The notes under the pieces were generated by a model. That model did not search any database. It was not told the origin of the DNA and saw nothing but the letters and a program-made list of their open reading frames with translations. The position numbers and the translations under genes are program-made. Positions 43,220 through 47,613 of a stretch of DNA of 64,000 nt are shown one piece after another (within the stretch, counting starts at the first letter, position 1; each line of letters begins with the position of its first letter). The stretch lies in NCBI RefSeq assembly GCF_032930845.1, contig NZ_CP136758.1, forward strand, positions 1,379,001 to 1,443,000. The letters run 5' to 3'. This DNA comes from Parvularcula sp. LCG005 (GTDB lineage Bacteria; Pseudomonadota; Alphaproteobacteria; Caulobacterales; Parvularculaceae).

Positions 43220-44002
43220 ATGGATCTGAAAATTAACGGCCGCCGCGCTCTTGTCACTGGCGCGAGTGGCGGCATCGGCATGGCCGTATGCAAAGTATTG
43301 AAAAGCGAAGGCGTCAACCTGACGATCACGGATCTCAAAGAGGACGCCGTCCGACAGGCAACAGAGGAGCTCTCGTGCGAAGGGGTCGCTGCTGATCTGT
43401 CGACCACACAGAAGGTGAAGGCGCTGCTTGATGAAACGGGCAGGGACTTTGATATTTTTGTCCATGCCGCCGGTGTGACGGGTGGCAAGGGTGATCCTCT
43501 CGACATGGATGACGACGCTTGGGATGAGGCCTGGGACACCGATTTCATGTCAGGGGTTCGCCTGTCTCGCGAGCTTGGGCCGAAAATGATCGAAAGGGGT
43601 TGGGGACGGATGGTCTTCGTGACCTCGGAAAATGTGGCTCAGCCCTATGCCGACGAGACCGTGTATAACGTGGCCAAAAGCGCGGCACTGAGTTTTGCCA
43701 AATCCGTGTCCATGGCTCACTCGAAGAGCGGTCTCTTGGTCAATTGTGTCGCGCCCGCCTTCATCAAGACAGATATGACGGACGGCATGATGGAGAAGCG
43801 TTCAGAAGAATTGGGTGTCTCGGTCGAGGAAGCTGTCGAGAGTTTTCTGAAAGAAGAGCGGCCCTATCTGGTGCTGGAACGCCGTGGCCGCCCCGAAGAG
43901 GTGGCTCCCGTGGTTGCTATGTTGTGTTCTGAGCTCGCGTCCTTTGTGACGGGGGCCAACTGGCGGGTAGACGGAGGATCGGTCGGTTCGATCAATGTCT
44001 GA
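43220..44002 (+). CDS. SDR family oxidoreductase
   Basis: A 260-residue short-chain dehydrogenase: TGASGGIGMAV cofactor loop, HAAGVTGG, FVTSENVAQPYADETVYNVAKSA with catalytic Tyr and Lys (the usual S-S is S-E-N), and a C-terminal ASFVTGANWRVDGGS. Substrate not inferable. The following hydrolase gene starts 8 bases before this stop, so the pair is a coupled operon. A near-EcfG promoter lies upstream. Confidence 0.9.
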   Translation: MDLKINGRRALVTGASGGIGMAVCKVLKSEGVNLTITDLKEDAVRQATEELSCEGVAADLSTTQKVKALLDETGRDFDIFVHAAGVTGGKGDPLDMDDDAWDEAWDTDFMSGVRLSRELGPKMIERGWGRMVFVTSENVAQPYADETVYNVAKSAALSFAKSVSMAHSKSGLLVNCVAPAFIKTDMTDGMMEKRSEELGVSVEEAVESFLKEERPYLVLERRGRPEEVAPVVAMLCSELASFVTGANWRVDGGSVGSINV

Positions 44003-44843
44003 TCGTCTGCCAACGACTGAAGCAGAACTGCGCCATCATATATCTTCGATCCCTATGACAGGGTCGGTCGAGGAGCGTCGAAAGGCGTTCGAGCGGATCA
44101 TGCCGCCGTGCCCTGCAATGGCAGAACCGGGGACGCTTGGCGGCGTCTCCGGCCTCTATGTGGGGCAGGGGCGGACGCTGGCATTGTGGCTGCATGGCGG
44201 GGGCTATGTTTTTGGCAGCGCCCGCACCCACGCGGCAGTTGCTCAACGAATGGCAGCCTTGGCTGAATGCCGCATCTTTCTGCCCGACTACCGACTCGCA
44301 CCAGAACATCCATGGCCTGCCATGCTCCAAGATGCCTGTAACGTCGTACAGGCTTGCAGCGGGCCAGTCATCCTTATCGGAGATAGCGCGGGCGGTCATT
44401 TGACTTTGAACGTTGCCGCAAAGATGCCGGACAGGATCGAACGGCTTGTTCTGTTCTCTCCGAACACGGACCGCACCGGCGCCAATGGTTTGCGCCAGAC
44501 GAACAGCGCTCAGGATATAATGAACGACGATGCATCAGATGCCGCACTGGCCGGCTTGGCATTTCAGAATAATTGGGACCCCCAGTCACCCGAATTATCG
44601 CCGCGACTGCATGATGGGCTATTCCCGCCCATCTTCCTGGCCTGTACCCGCGGCGAAGTGCTGCACGACGATGCACGGCTCCTGCGCGACAAAATCCAGC
44701 GACAGGGTGGGGACGTGAGCTATCGCGAATACGGCCAGTTGTTTCACATGTTCGAGCACTGGCCCGATATCCTGCCCGACGCCCAGCAGGCGTTGATGGA
44801 TGGCGCAAACTTCATGAAAACCGGCGGCCTGCCCAAAGGTTAG
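43995..44843 (+). CDS. Alpha/beta hydrolase fold-3 (HSL/esterase family)
   Basis: A 282-residue esterase-type enzyme: oxyanion motif LWLHGGGYVFGS, DYRLAPEHPWPAMLQDA, nucleophile elbow LIGDSAGGHLTL, acid residue near GEVLHDDARLL and catalytic His in LFHMFEHW. This is the hormone-sensitive-lipase/arylacetamide-deacetylase pattern. Overlaps the SDR gene by 8 bases. The natural ester or lactone is unknown; pairing with an SDR suggests degradation of a small ester or lactone. Confidence 0.9.
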   Translation: MSDRLPTTEAELRHHISSIPMTGSVEERRKAFERIMPPCPAMAEPGTLGGVSGLYVGQGRTLALWLHGGGYVFGSARTHAAVAQRMAALAECRIFLPDYRLAPEHPWPAMLQDACNVVQACSGPVILIGDSAGGHLTLNVAAKMPDRIERLVLFSPNTDRTGANGLRQTNSAQDIMNDDASDAALAGLAFQNNWDPQSPELSPRLHDGLFPPIFLACTRGEVLHDDARLLRDKIQRQGGDVSYREYGQLFHMFEHWPDILPDAQQALMDGANFMKTGGLPKG

Positions 44844-44861
44844 GGATTGAACGCGCTGTAT

Positions 44862-44876
44862 GTTCTGCTATTGTTC
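44862..44876 (+). promoter_or_regulatory. LexA (SOS) box of the alphaproteobacterial type
   Basis: GTTC (44862-44865), 7 bases, GTTC (44873-44876): the direct repeat GTTC-N7-GTTC bound by LexA in alphaproteobacteria. It overlaps a candidate -10 (TATTGT, 44869-44874) set 16 bases after TTGAAC (44847-44852). The rSAM start codon is 18 bases downstream. Confidence 0.75.
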
Positions 44877-44893
44877 TCCTTCCAGGAGGACGC

Positions 44894-46144
44894 ATGGCGC
44901 GCAGTACGATCGATAAACTCACAATTCTGGCCGATGCGGCAAAATACGACGCATCCTGTGCATCCTCAGGCACGAGCAAGCGCGATTCAAAAAATAGCAA
45001 AGGAATTGGCTCCACCGAGGGAATGGGGATCTGTCACTCCTATGCACCGGACGGCCGGTGTATTTCGCTTTTGAAGGTGCTGCTGACCAATTTCTGTATT
45101 TTTGACTGCCGCTATTGCGTCAACCGGTCTTCCTCAAATGTGGAGCGGGCGCGTTTCAAGCCTGAAGAACTGGCGGCGCTGACGCTCGACTTTTACAAGC
45201 GGAATTATATTGAGGGACTTTTTCTGTCCTCGGGTATCATTCAGTCTGCCAACTACACCATGGAGCAGATGGTCGAAGTGGCGCGTATTCTGCGCGAGGA
45301 TCATCATTTTGCCGGCTATATCCATCTGAAGACGATTGCTGAGGCGGACCCGGAACTGATCGCTCTGGCAGGTCAGTACGCGGACCGGCTCTCGGTCAAT
45401 ATTGAATTGCCTTCCGATCAGGGACTGAAGACGTTCGCGCCGGAAAAATCGGGGCAGACCATTCGAAAAGCCATGGCTGACGTCAAATATCGAATTGATG
45501 ACAGGAAAGAGGCCCAGAAATCCCGGCTGATCAAGAAGGCAGCTGCGCCAAAATTTGCACCTGGCGGACAGTCAACTCAGATGATTGTCGGCGCAGATGG
45601 GGCCAAAGATCAAGATATCCTGTCGACGGCCAACACACTCTATTCCGGTTATGGTCTGCGCCGGGTCTATTATTCCGCTTACAGCCCAATTCCCGATGCA
45701 TCATCGGACCTGCCGCCGCAAAAACCGCCTTTGATGCGGGAGCACCGGCTTTACCAGGCGGACTGGATGGTCCGGTTTTACGGATTTGAGACAAGCGATG
45801 TCTTATCGGCCACGACCGGCGGTATGTTTGACCTTGATGTGGATCCAAAGCTGGCCTGGTCACTGCGCCATCGCGACTGGTTTCCGATGGATATCAACCG
45901 CGCGACGCGTGAACAGCTGCTGCGGGTGCCGGGGCTGGGACCGACGACGGTCAAAAAGATCATCAGCGCCCGGCGATTTTCGGCATTAGGGCTTGAGGAT
46001 CTGGCGCGGATGCGGGTCTCACTGACCAAAGTGCGGCCGTTCATCATTGCGCGGGGCTGGTCACCAGGGGCCTTGGTCGATCTTGATAATCTGCGCGCGC
46101 GGTTCAGCCCGGCGCCGGACCAGCTTTCCCTGTTTGCCGCATGA
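44894..46144 (+). CDS. Putative DNA modification/repair radical SAM protein with C-terminal clamp-binding motif
   Basis: A 416-residue radical SAM protein of the UDG-linked family (TIGR03916 type, called putative DNA modification/repair radical SAM protein). The 4Fe-4S motif NFCIFDCRYC places Cys at 68, 72 and 75. FLSSGIIQSANYTMEQMVEV and YIHLKTIAEADPELI continue the barrel. A helix-hairpin-helix DNA-binding unit follows near the end (NRATREQLLRVPGLGPTTVKKI). The last residues DQLSLFAA contain QLSLF (410-414), a canonical bacterial sliding-clamp-binding motif. AGGAGG lies 4 bases before ATG. The stop overlaps the next gene by ATGA. The reaction is not established for this family. Confidence 0.9.
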   Translation: MARSTIDKLTILADAAKYDASCASSGTSKRDSKNSKGIGSTEGMGICHSYAPDGRCISLLKVLLTNFCIFDCRYCVNRSSSNVERARFKPEELAALTLDFYKRNYIEGLFLSSGIIQSANYTMEQMVEVARILREDHHFAGYIHLKTIAEADPELIALAGQYADRLSVNIELPSDQGLKTFAPEKSGQTIRKAMADVKYRIDDRKEAQKSRLIKKAAAPKFAPGGQSTQMIVGADGAKDQDILSTANTLYSGYGLRRVYYSAYSPIPDASSDLPPQKPPLMREHRLYQADWMVRFYGFETSDVLSATTGGMFDLDVDPKLAWSLRHRDWFPMDINRATREQLLRVPGLGPTTVKKIISARRFSALGLEDLARMRVSLTKVRPFIIARGWSPGALVDLDNLRARFSPAPDQLSLFAA

Positions 46145-47613
46145 TTGTTTCATTGGACGCGGAAACAGATTTTGCCGGCTGGCGGAATCACGCGCGCCGA
46201 CTTTGTGCGAAGGGTATTCGGCCGTCTGAGATTGAGTGGCGGACGCCGGGGATGGTGGCTGATCTCTTCGGCGTTGAGCCGAGGGGGAGAAATCGCGCGT
46301 CATCTGACGATCGTCCGGTGACGGCATCCCGGCGGTTTCTGACGCTTGCTGAACGGGTGGTGGCCCACCGTGACCCCAGCCGTTTTGCCCGTCTGTACGA
46401 GATCCTTTACCGCCTGCAGGAGCAGCCGCAATTCCTGAACAACACTTCCGATCCACTGATCTGTTGGTTGATGGCCGCGGAGAAAGCCATTCGCCGAGAC
46501 GTTCACAAAATGCATGCCTTTGTGCGGTTTCGGAAGGCGGGCGAAACAGACGAGGGGCGGGAGTGTTTCGCTGCCTGGTTTGAACCGGAGCACAGGATCA
46601 CCAGACTTGCAGCCCCCTTTTTTCAGCGGCGCTTCGCCGCCATGAACTGGCTGATCGTCACGCCGGAAGATCGGGCGCAATGGAACGGGGCGGAGCTGAC
46701 ATTTGGCCCTGGCGGCACCCAGGCGGACGTGCCGGATGTCGATGACATGGAGGAGGGCTGGCGGCAGTATTACAGCTCTATCTTCAATCCCGCTCGCCTG
46801 AAGATCAGTGCCATGAAAAGCGAGATGCCGGTCAAATATTGGCGCAATTTGCCAGAAGCCAGCCTTATCCCGTCACTTATTCAAAGGGCTGAGGACCAGC
46901 AACGCGCGATGATCGATCGTGGCGGATCAGAAGTGAATGCGCGGGTCGAGAAATGGACGCATCAGCCTGCGACCATTGCAGCAACTCCTGCGCAGACTCT
47001 GGAGGAGCTGAACACGCAGGCGCGCGCCTGTACGCGATGCGGCTTGTGCGAGCAGGCATCGCAGACGGTTTGCGGGCAGGGACCGCACAATGCCCGTCTG
47101 ATGCTGGTGGGCGAACAGCCTGGCGACGAGGAAGATATTGCCGGGCGTCCCTTTATCGGACCTGCCGGCCGCCTGCTCGATAGTGTGCTGACCGAAGCGG
47201 GAATTGATCGGAAGACGTCCTATGTCACGAATGCCGTCAAACATTTCAAATTCGAGCCGCGGGGAAAGCGGCGTCTGCATAAGACACCGAATATTAAAGA
47301 GATCGATCATTGCCGGTGGTGGCTGAACGAAGAACGGAGACTGATAGCGCCGAAACTCATTGTCGGACTTGGCGCAACGGCGGCGCGAAGCCTGCTGGGC
47401 AAGAGTGTCAAACTGTCTGAAAATCGCGGACGCATTCTTCCCGTTGATCCGCAGACCCATGTTCTTCTGACAGTGCATCCATCCTATCTGCTGCGATTGC
47501 CAGATCGGGAGCACGCGGCATCAGAACGACGGGCGTTTGTTCGCGATCTGACAATGGCGCGTCAGTTCATGGATCACTCGCAGACACCCGCATTTGCCTC
47601 GCATGCGCCATAG
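46141..47613 (+). CDS. udgX: DUF4130 - UdgX fusion (uracil-DNA-binding protein)
   Basis: A 490-residue fusion. Residues 1-250 match the DUF4130 'probable DNA metabolism' domain (ARLYEILYRLQ, DVHKMHAFVRFRK, FEPEHRITRLAAPFFQRRFAAMNWLIVTP). Residues about 285-475 are a family 4-like UDG of the UdgX subgroup: CTRCGLC (297-303) plus C391 as likely Fe-S ligands, GEQPGDEED (324-332), the UdgX-specific insert KRRLH (376-380) with the His that in Mycobacterium UdgX bonds covalently to the abasic sugar after uracil excision, and HPSYLLR (446-452). Coupled by ATGA to the radical SAM gene and therefore under the same LexA box. Confidence 0.92.
   Translation: MIVSLDAETDFAGWRNHARRLCAKGIRPSEIEWRTPGMVADLFGVEPRGRNRASSDDRPVTASRRFLTLAERVVAHRDPSRFARLYEILYRLQEQPQFLNNTSDPLICWLMAAEKAIRRDVHKMHAFVRFRKAGETDEGRECFAAWFEPEHRITRLAAPFFQRRFAAMNWLIVTPEDRAQWNGAELTFGPGGTQADVPDVDDMEEGWRQYYSSIFNPARLKISAMKSEMPVKYWRNLPEASLIPSLIQRAEDQQRAMIDRGGSEVNARVEKWTHQPATIAATPAQTLEELNTQARACTRCGLCEQASQTVCGQGPHNARLMLVGEQPGDEEDIAGRPFIGPAGRLLDSVLTEAGIDRKTSYVTNAVKHFKFEPRGKRRLHKTPNIKEIDHCRWWLNEERRLIAPKLIVGLGATAARSLLGKSVKLSENRGRILPVDPQTHVLLTVHPSYLLRLPDREHAASERRAFVRDLTMARQFMDHSQTPAFASHAP

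Follow-up and report, generated by a model that had tools for sequence, protein, structure and literature searches.

A 64-kb stretch of the genome of the alphaproteobacterium Parvularcula sp. LCG005 (hereafter the window) contains a two-gene operon that is very probably under the control of LexA, as judged by a conserved operator-like box ahead of its first gene. The operon encodes a radical S-adenosylmethionine (radical-SAM) protein of a family linked to uracil-DNA glycosylases (UDGs), and a fusion of the DUF4130 domain with UdgX. The evidence is comparative, and consists of the box and its conservation, an obligate pairing of the radical-SAM and DUF4130 families, the catalytic residues of UdgX, a clamp-like tail on the radical-SAM protein, and six cysteines. 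On balance, we slightly favor the reading that the operon specifies an SOS-induced, clamp-tethered pair that processes DNA lesions, in which DUF4130 is an obligate partner and UdgX an optional trap for uracil or abasic sites; the reading is placed this high because the reaction itself is left open in it. That the products of the operon act on DNA damage is, taken alone, likely.

An earlier note on this DNA had described a perfect GTTC-N7-GTTC box ahead of two genes joined by an ATGA overlap, and both features were found as described (Table 1). The box, GTTCTGCTATTGTTC, is the only exact match in the window and lies, with 17 bp between it and the first ATG, inside a 50-bp intergenic gap whose upstream neighbor is an alpha/beta-hydrolase gene (43995–44843). 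The same note had the box overlapping a promoter, a placement that found no support, as no sigma-70-like promoter passed a consensus scan of 44700–44950; no terminator was found by consensus scan either. An exact box somewhere in 64 kb is by itself no significant find, since chance predicts 1.98 of them and 86 of 100 shuffled sequences contained at least one, and the weight of this box rests on its position. Genome-wide, 91 exact sites were counted against 45 for the reversed pattern, so that about half of the exact sites are background.

Within the same genome, the box belongs to a recognizable set. One LexA match was above the family cut-off (G000:C1:1682732), and lexA has a box of its own, GTTCTAGGGTTGTTC, at 1682655, just upstream of the gene. 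We inspected 20 stretches with genome boxes (21 of the 91 sites), picked mainly by their spacer, and scanned ten proteins that start near a box, nine of which had a recognized family and one of which had none. The recognized genes encode RecA, SSB, UvrA, RecN, RadA, and LexA, in addition to a UvrD/PcrA-like helicase (two boxes), a YifB-family ATPase, and a PA0069-family radical-SAM protein. When the 91 sites were ranked by a small matrix built from ten boxes beside these nine genes, the window box came 16th and the uvrA box 23rd. Two further observations concern this set of boxes. The PA0069-family gene, a second radical-SAM gene in this genome (G000:C1:407361, L174), has a LexA-type box 23 bp from its start, and a small protein of ~120 aa is present in two near-identical copies (G000:C1:2217391 and 2654361; L165, L166), each adjoining the box GTTCTGTGTTTGTTC.

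The strongest support for LexA control comes from comparison between genomes. We assembled 102 radical-SAM loci, of which 21 (including the window) came from 100 relatives, 80 from named genomes, and one from a viral collection; the 80 are the best of at least 586 related stretches and are biased to near relatives, and the sub-threshold fragments L030 and L031 were excluded before the count. Three sequence subsets were defined, A1 (14 of the 21), A2 (the window and 50 of the 80), and A3 (the window and 51 of 65). An exact box, in either orientation, lies at most 150 bp upstream of the radical-SAM start in 94 of the 102 loci, four others have a one-mismatch box only, and the remaining four lack a box of either kind. 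Elsewhere in the same loci, the background is 0.005 exact boxes per 180 bp. On a tree built from all 102 sequences, a single change accounts for the box orientations, which therefore do not speak for repeated re-invention within the set. A phylum-wide sample yielded 31 further genomes of the same class above the cut-off; 24 were checked as loci (seven were left out), and all 24 have an exact box.

Outside the class, the motif changes and the position does not. GTTC-N7-GTTC was found upstream in none of the 17 genomes that make up the above-threshold, outside-class part of the phylum-wide sample. At its position, 12 of the 17 have CTGT-N8-ACAG, which is the LexA motif of Escherichia coli (PMC8565304), and three more have a one-mismatch form of it; the background elsewhere is 0.0035 per 170 bp. 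The occurrence of this second motif at the same place indicates that LexA-type control, as read from the boxes, persists though the LexA motif differs between groups. A one-mismatch GAAC-N4-GTTC, presumably the Bacillus-type LexA motif, was seen upstream in two loci, one of a clostridium and one of a record labelled as gut phage (L187, L189), by eye and with no background computed. Conservation of the box in orthologous promoters had been named beforehand as the comparison on which the idea of LexA control could fail, and the box proved to be conserved. Together with the box of lexA itself and the CTGT-N8-ACAG sites outside the class, this strongly supports the predicted control of the operon, which we hold with high confidence.

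Two congeners add detail to this picture, since their radical-SAM and DUF4130-UdgX genes are on separate contigs (G003 and G008), with no DUF4130 match in the 5.5–5.9 kb after the radical-SAM gene. In both, the detached DUF4130-UdgX gene is preceded by a small open reading frame (ORF) with an exact box just before one of its ATG codons (GTTCCCTACATGTTC in G003 and GTTCCCTAAGTGTTC in G008), and in G008 the longest frame of this ORF also has a GTG start that lies upstream of the box. Ahead of the radical-SAM gene itself, an exact box is present in G003 and absent in G008. A small, highly charged ORF of ~135–145 aa was also observed directly before DUF4130-UdgX in congeners (L011, L028, L161, L162), and its L011 copy had no Pfam match.

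Three Xanthomonas loci and genome G191 (L056, L062, L078, L134/L143) have a GTCTCA-N5-TGAGAC palindrome in place of the LexA-type box. Copies of the palindrome number only two, two, and three in three of these genomes, against none of the reversed control. They lie ahead of this operon and ahead of a DEAH-box helicase gene (TIGR03817-like on partial sequence in two genomes, the third assigned by eye), and G191 has a further one ~110 bp before uvrA (L192, L196, L197, L198). The palindrome looks like the mark of a small repair regulon under another, putative regulator.

The first gene was correctly recognized in the earlier note as a UDG-linked radical-SAM protein: it matches TIGR03916 (rSAM_link_UDG) with 568.4 bits, against a curated cut-off of 343.5. 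All 102 sequences have the same six cysteines, namely the three of the CX3CX2C motif (C68, C72, C75) and three that precede it (C22, C47, C56). Seven more homologues were taken from records labelled as plasmid or phage. All six cysteines are retained in six of them, five of which are 47–52% identical to the window protein and one of which is an alphaproteobacterial relative at 64%; the seventh, from Gemmatirosa (34% identical), is without C22, C47, and C56 in the reading-frame start that was chosen. A second metal cluster held by these three residues has, in our estimate, an even chance of being real. An N-terminal cysteine triplet ahead of the radical-SAM motif is reminiscent of lipoyl synthase. 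The nearest folds to the structural model in the Protein Data Bank (PDB) are HydE, biotin synthase, and lipoyl synthase (best 50 of 1238 matches, E up to 10). Spore photoproduct lyase was absent among these best 50 matches, no direct comparison with a structure of it having been made, and no family of this lyase appeared in the family and Pfam scans; kinship with the lyase is thus unsupported. A candidate helix-hairpin-helix motif (residues 333–361) has weak PDB matches to ComEA and RuvA.

Such folds raise the question of whether the operon modifies DNA or nucleotides rather than repairing them, with the radical-SAM protein modifying a base and UdgX removing or guarding mistakes. The extra invariant cysteines are compatible with this, as is the name of the NCBI family, "putative DNA modification/repair". 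However, LexA-type control in several bacterial groups indicates a role at the time of damage, and we consider this alternative unlikely.

The radical-SAM protein ends in QLSLF-AA. A Qxx[LMI][FL] motif lies within the last 14 residues of 96 of the 102 radical-SAM sequences, compared with 6.3% of shuffled tails. With W also admitted at the last place, the counts are 96/102 radical-SAM tails, 5/561 background ORFs (the remaining ORFs of 300 aa or more, shadow ORFs among them, from 80 of the loci), and 0/95 partner-protein tails, while the stricter Q[LM]x[LIM][FL] is found in 86 of 102. Q410 is retained in all seven further homologues; there the motif varies (QLSLF, QLILPF, QLSIF, QLSLW, QLSFF, QLSLGF, QLSLF) and is sometimes located away from the very end. 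QLxLF has been described as a consensus for binding the beta clamp, often at the C-terminus (PMC4549789; the consensus is also given in PMC3919608), and docking of the radical-SAM protein on the clamp seems to us moderately probable. For the SOS-linked protein ImuB, too, beta-clamp docking has been predicted (PMC11791113), but ImuB is a relative of polymerases, whereas the window protein belongs to a family of radical-chemistry enzymes. In the literature searched, neither a clamp-like QLxLF tail nor the three extra cysteines was stated for TIGR03916, the QLSLF search having been run without combining it with radical SAM.

The second gene was identified as DUF4130-UdgX by matches to TIGR03915 (189.5 bits, cut-off 112.25) and TIGR03914 (323.9 bits, cut-off 189.95), and by Pfam matches to DUF4130 and UDG. 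Searches with the DUF4130 part gave no PHROG and, in four proteins, no Pfam family besides DUF4130 itself (E up to 10). In the fold comparison of the fusion protein, structures of the UDG superfamily fill all 50 matches listed, and the UdgX domain is closer to UdgX (6ail, E 1.7e-52) than to a family-4 UDG (1ui0, E 1.6e-33). Residues were counted over 96 rows with gaps set aside. Among the sequences that reach these positions, E and Q of GEQPG are present in 85/85 and N in 85/85, R and H of the R-loop in 84/84, and in motif B the H is present in 81/82 and the R in 81/81. Motif B here has a tyrosine at the fourth place, in contrast to the printed consensus HPS(S/A)(L/V)(L/V)R, and keeps the H and R. 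UdgX of Mycobacterium smegmatis, the best structure match, has the GEQPG, KRRxH, and HPS motifs in common with the window protein. It differs in being a protein of ~210–230 residues with KRRIH, whereas the window has KRRLH and a UdgX fused behind DUF4130 in an SOS operon. Motifs and structural similarity thus bear out the UdgX assignment of the earlier note. UdgX captures DNA covalently through H109, and its physiological role is described as largely unknown (PMC10359453).

In addition, six sphingomonad-type loci have a hemerythrin-like gene (~160 aa) between the radical-SAM and DUF4130-UdgX genes. It was recognized by a Pfam match in L044 and L053, and by eye in L074, L077, L081, and L092. 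The inserted protein might guard an oxygen-sensitive cluster.

The pairing of the two families is nearly complete. The same 21 of 100 relatives have both the radical-SAM family and DUF4130 above cut-off, and among 299 phylum genomes the radical-SAM family is present in 53, DUF4130 in 53/53 of those, and DUF4130 alone in three more. Caulobacter vibrioides is among the species in which both families were detected. A complete DUF4130 ORF that lacks the UdgX part was found in 7 of 96 loci; L085 and L094 were left out of these seven, as their ORF stops short of a separate downstream UdgX match. An annotated Parabacteroides record likewise pairs the radical-SAM protein with a TIGR03915 protein of UdgX-less size, and the partner in an "Acinetobacter phage" record is of similar, UdgX-less size. 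The 53/53 pairing and the UdgX-less loci point to a working core of radical-SAM protein plus DUF4130, nearly inseparable by this comparison, to which UdgX is an optional addition. Of the pair proposed earlier, the link between the radical-SAM protein and DUF4130 stands, and UdgX is better seen as an optional module than as the center of the system.

It is conceivable, on the other hand, that UdgX is the main actor, in which case the operon would protect uracil-derived abasic sites and the radical-SAM protein would release or process the UdgX-DNA crosslink. The covalent-capture residues are invariant in the fusions, and 40 of the 52 genomes with UdgX also have the radical-SAM gene. Against this, the radical-SAM gene is missing from the other 12 UdgX genomes, and UdgX above cut-off is missing from 13 of the 53 radical-SAM genomes, which led us to reject UdgX as an essential component. 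The UdgX-less partners, including those of Parabacteroides and the phage-labelled record, argue in the same direction, and we give this alternative only a slim chance.

The distribution of the operon bears on a third alternative, that of an SOS-induced defence against phages with uracil-containing or damaged DNA. The radical-SAM protein of the window groups with that of Ponticaulis (Hyphomonadaceae, 75%), and sequences of its own genus (L011, L013, L015, L016, L028, L029), at 61–64% to it, form a separate clade; this grouping makes horizontal exchange of the radical-SAM gene likely. The gene is also found on 158 of 72,556 plasmid records (142 of the 158 predicted non-mobilisable), and on a 60-kb Leisingera plasmid (L191) the operon is near repABC. 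While the patchy occurrence, the signs of exchange, and the plasmid copies would suit a defence role, the LexA-type box is retained as it is at core repair genes, and we regard such a role as very unlikely. A known defence system was excluded as well, as neither protein has a PADLOC family match at E 0.01. Least credible is a chance box ahead of a constitutive operon, for although chance would supply about two exact boxes in 64 kb and about half of the genome sites are background, the position of the box, its conservation close to the start codon in 94 of 102 loci, and the other LexA-type box there elsewhere in the phylum rule this out for practical purposes.

Table 1. Location of the box, the genes, and the protein motifs of the operon, in window coordinates.
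Feature	Position	Strand	Basis
LexA-type box GTTC-N7-GTTC, GTTCTGCTATTGTTC	44862..44876	+	Exact match; 94/102 loci; also at lexA, recA, ssb, uvrA, recN in this genome
Shine-Dalgarno-like AGGAGG ahead of first ATG	44884..44889	+	Sequence
Radical-SAM protein, TIGR03916 rSAM_link_UDG, 416 aa	44894..46144	+	Family match; model mean pLDDT 83.4
Invariant cysteines outside the CX3CX2C motif (C22, C47, C56), putative auxiliary Fe-S or other metal site	44957..45061	+	102/102 sequences
CX3CX2C radical-SAM cluster motif (C68, C72, C75)	45095..45118	+	Motif, alignment
Putative helix-hairpin-helix DNA-binding motif, residues 333-361	45890..45976	+	Pfam HHH_3 just under, HHH just over cut-off
QLSLF, beta-clamp-binding-like pentapeptide, residues 410-414	46121..46135	+	Tail comparison
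DUF4130-UdgX fusion protein, 490 aa, ATGA-coupled to first gene	46141..47613	+	Family matches
DUF4130 / TIGR03915 domain, residues 6-240	46156..46860	+	Family match
UdgX domain, TIGR03914, residues 242-472	46864..47556	+	Family match; best PDB matches M. smegmatis UdgX
UdgX motif A, GEQPG	47110..47124	+	E, Q in 85/85
UdgX R-loop KRRLH, H380 at the position of covalent H109	47266..47280	+	H in 84/84
UdgX motif B, HPSYLLR	47476..47496	+	H 81/82, R 81/81

We take COG4277 of the published work to be the same family as TIGR03916. On that understanding, SOS control of a UDG/radical-SAM pair is already published for Bacteroidetes, Verrucomicrobia, and Alphaproteobacteria, and is predicted in Clostridium, and the novelty that the earlier note implied for LexA control was too high. 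PMC8565304 reports SOS regulation of the two-gene UDG system COG1573-COG4277 in Bacteroidetes, cites papers on Verrucomicrobia and on Caulobacter (Alphaproteobacteria) for the same SOS-regulated pair (its references 7 and 65), and proposes a role for the pair against ribonucleotide misincorporation by SOS polymerases. Like the operon of the window, COG1573-COG4277 is a two-gene UDG operon in LexA-type regulons; the UDG of the window, however, is UdgX, fused behind DUF4130. PMC3828012 gives a radical-SAM operon of Clostridium acetobutylicum, CAC3343-CAC3344, as predicted to be LexA-controlled. We liken it to the present operon by its radical-SAM name and its predicted control. As early as 2013, DUF4130 was presented as a predicted mutagenesis-related enzyme near radical-SAM and UDG genes, and was connected, in a network of SOS neighbourhoods, with uracil-DNA glycosylases and with radical-SAM proteins of the SplB-like type (PMC3765255). 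Radical-SAM proteins of the SplB-like and PA0069 types are also said to occur in the SOS response (PMC8565304); they have the radical-SAM class in common with the window protein, which belongs to a different NCBI family and has six cysteines and a clamp-like tail. In the literature searched, we found no paper naming both UdgX and radical SAM, and no function stated for the TIGR03916 family. This analysis contributes two features of the radical-SAM protein, namely its clamp-like tail and its extra cysteines, together with the strict pairing and the comparison of boxes between groups.

In the mechanism that we propose, LexA would repress the two-gene operon and DNA damage would switch it on, an induction that we infer from the boxes. 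At the core of the system, the radical-SAM enzyme and its dedicated DUF4130 partner would act on a DNA lesion. The enzyme would probably bind DNA via its helix-hairpin-helix, and the C-terminal QLSLF may dock it on the beta sliding clamp, bringing it to DNA under replication or repair. The UdgX domain, where present, would excise uracil and then bind covalently, by its R-loop histidine H380, to the abasic site left behind, a capture that could shield the site or anchor the complex there. As for the chemistry, we lean toward a base lesion that blocks replication and that the enzyme would reverse directly or process by radical chemistry, and direct reversal as such is possible at best. A fuller version, in which a two-cluster radical-SAM enzyme sits on the beta clamp with obligate DUF4130 as an SOS machine for direct reversal or lesion processing, of a class not characterised before, and the UdgX trap for abasic sites was added in some proteobacteria, is offered as a tentative proposal.

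Several observations weigh against a damage-induced lesion-processing system. Ahead of the operon, two other same-strand genes stop 50 bp short of it, and read-through from them could give SOS-independent expression. The four boxless loci are the three Xanthomonas loci and the congener G008, and two of the 17 outside-class genomes have no LexA-type box at one mismatch. The operon is patchy, being found in 21 of 100 relatives, which indicates that it is not essential. Residues 22–31 and 35–46, which surround the extra cysteines, are modelled with a confidence below 50. Finally, the nearest solved folds (HydE, biotin synthase, and lipoyl synthase) are not DNA-repair enzymes, and the enzyme may therefore have a substrate other than a DNA lesion.

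With a core pair, an add-on UdgX, a persistent LexA-type control, and a clamp-like tail, what was "function unknown" becomes a matter of specific and cheap tests. The questions opened are which damaging agent is involved, whether the protein docks on the clamp, how many iron-sulfur clusters it holds, and whether the covalent histidine is needed. If the proposal is true, radical repair chemistry and protective DNA-protein crosslinking would form one replication-coupled unit.

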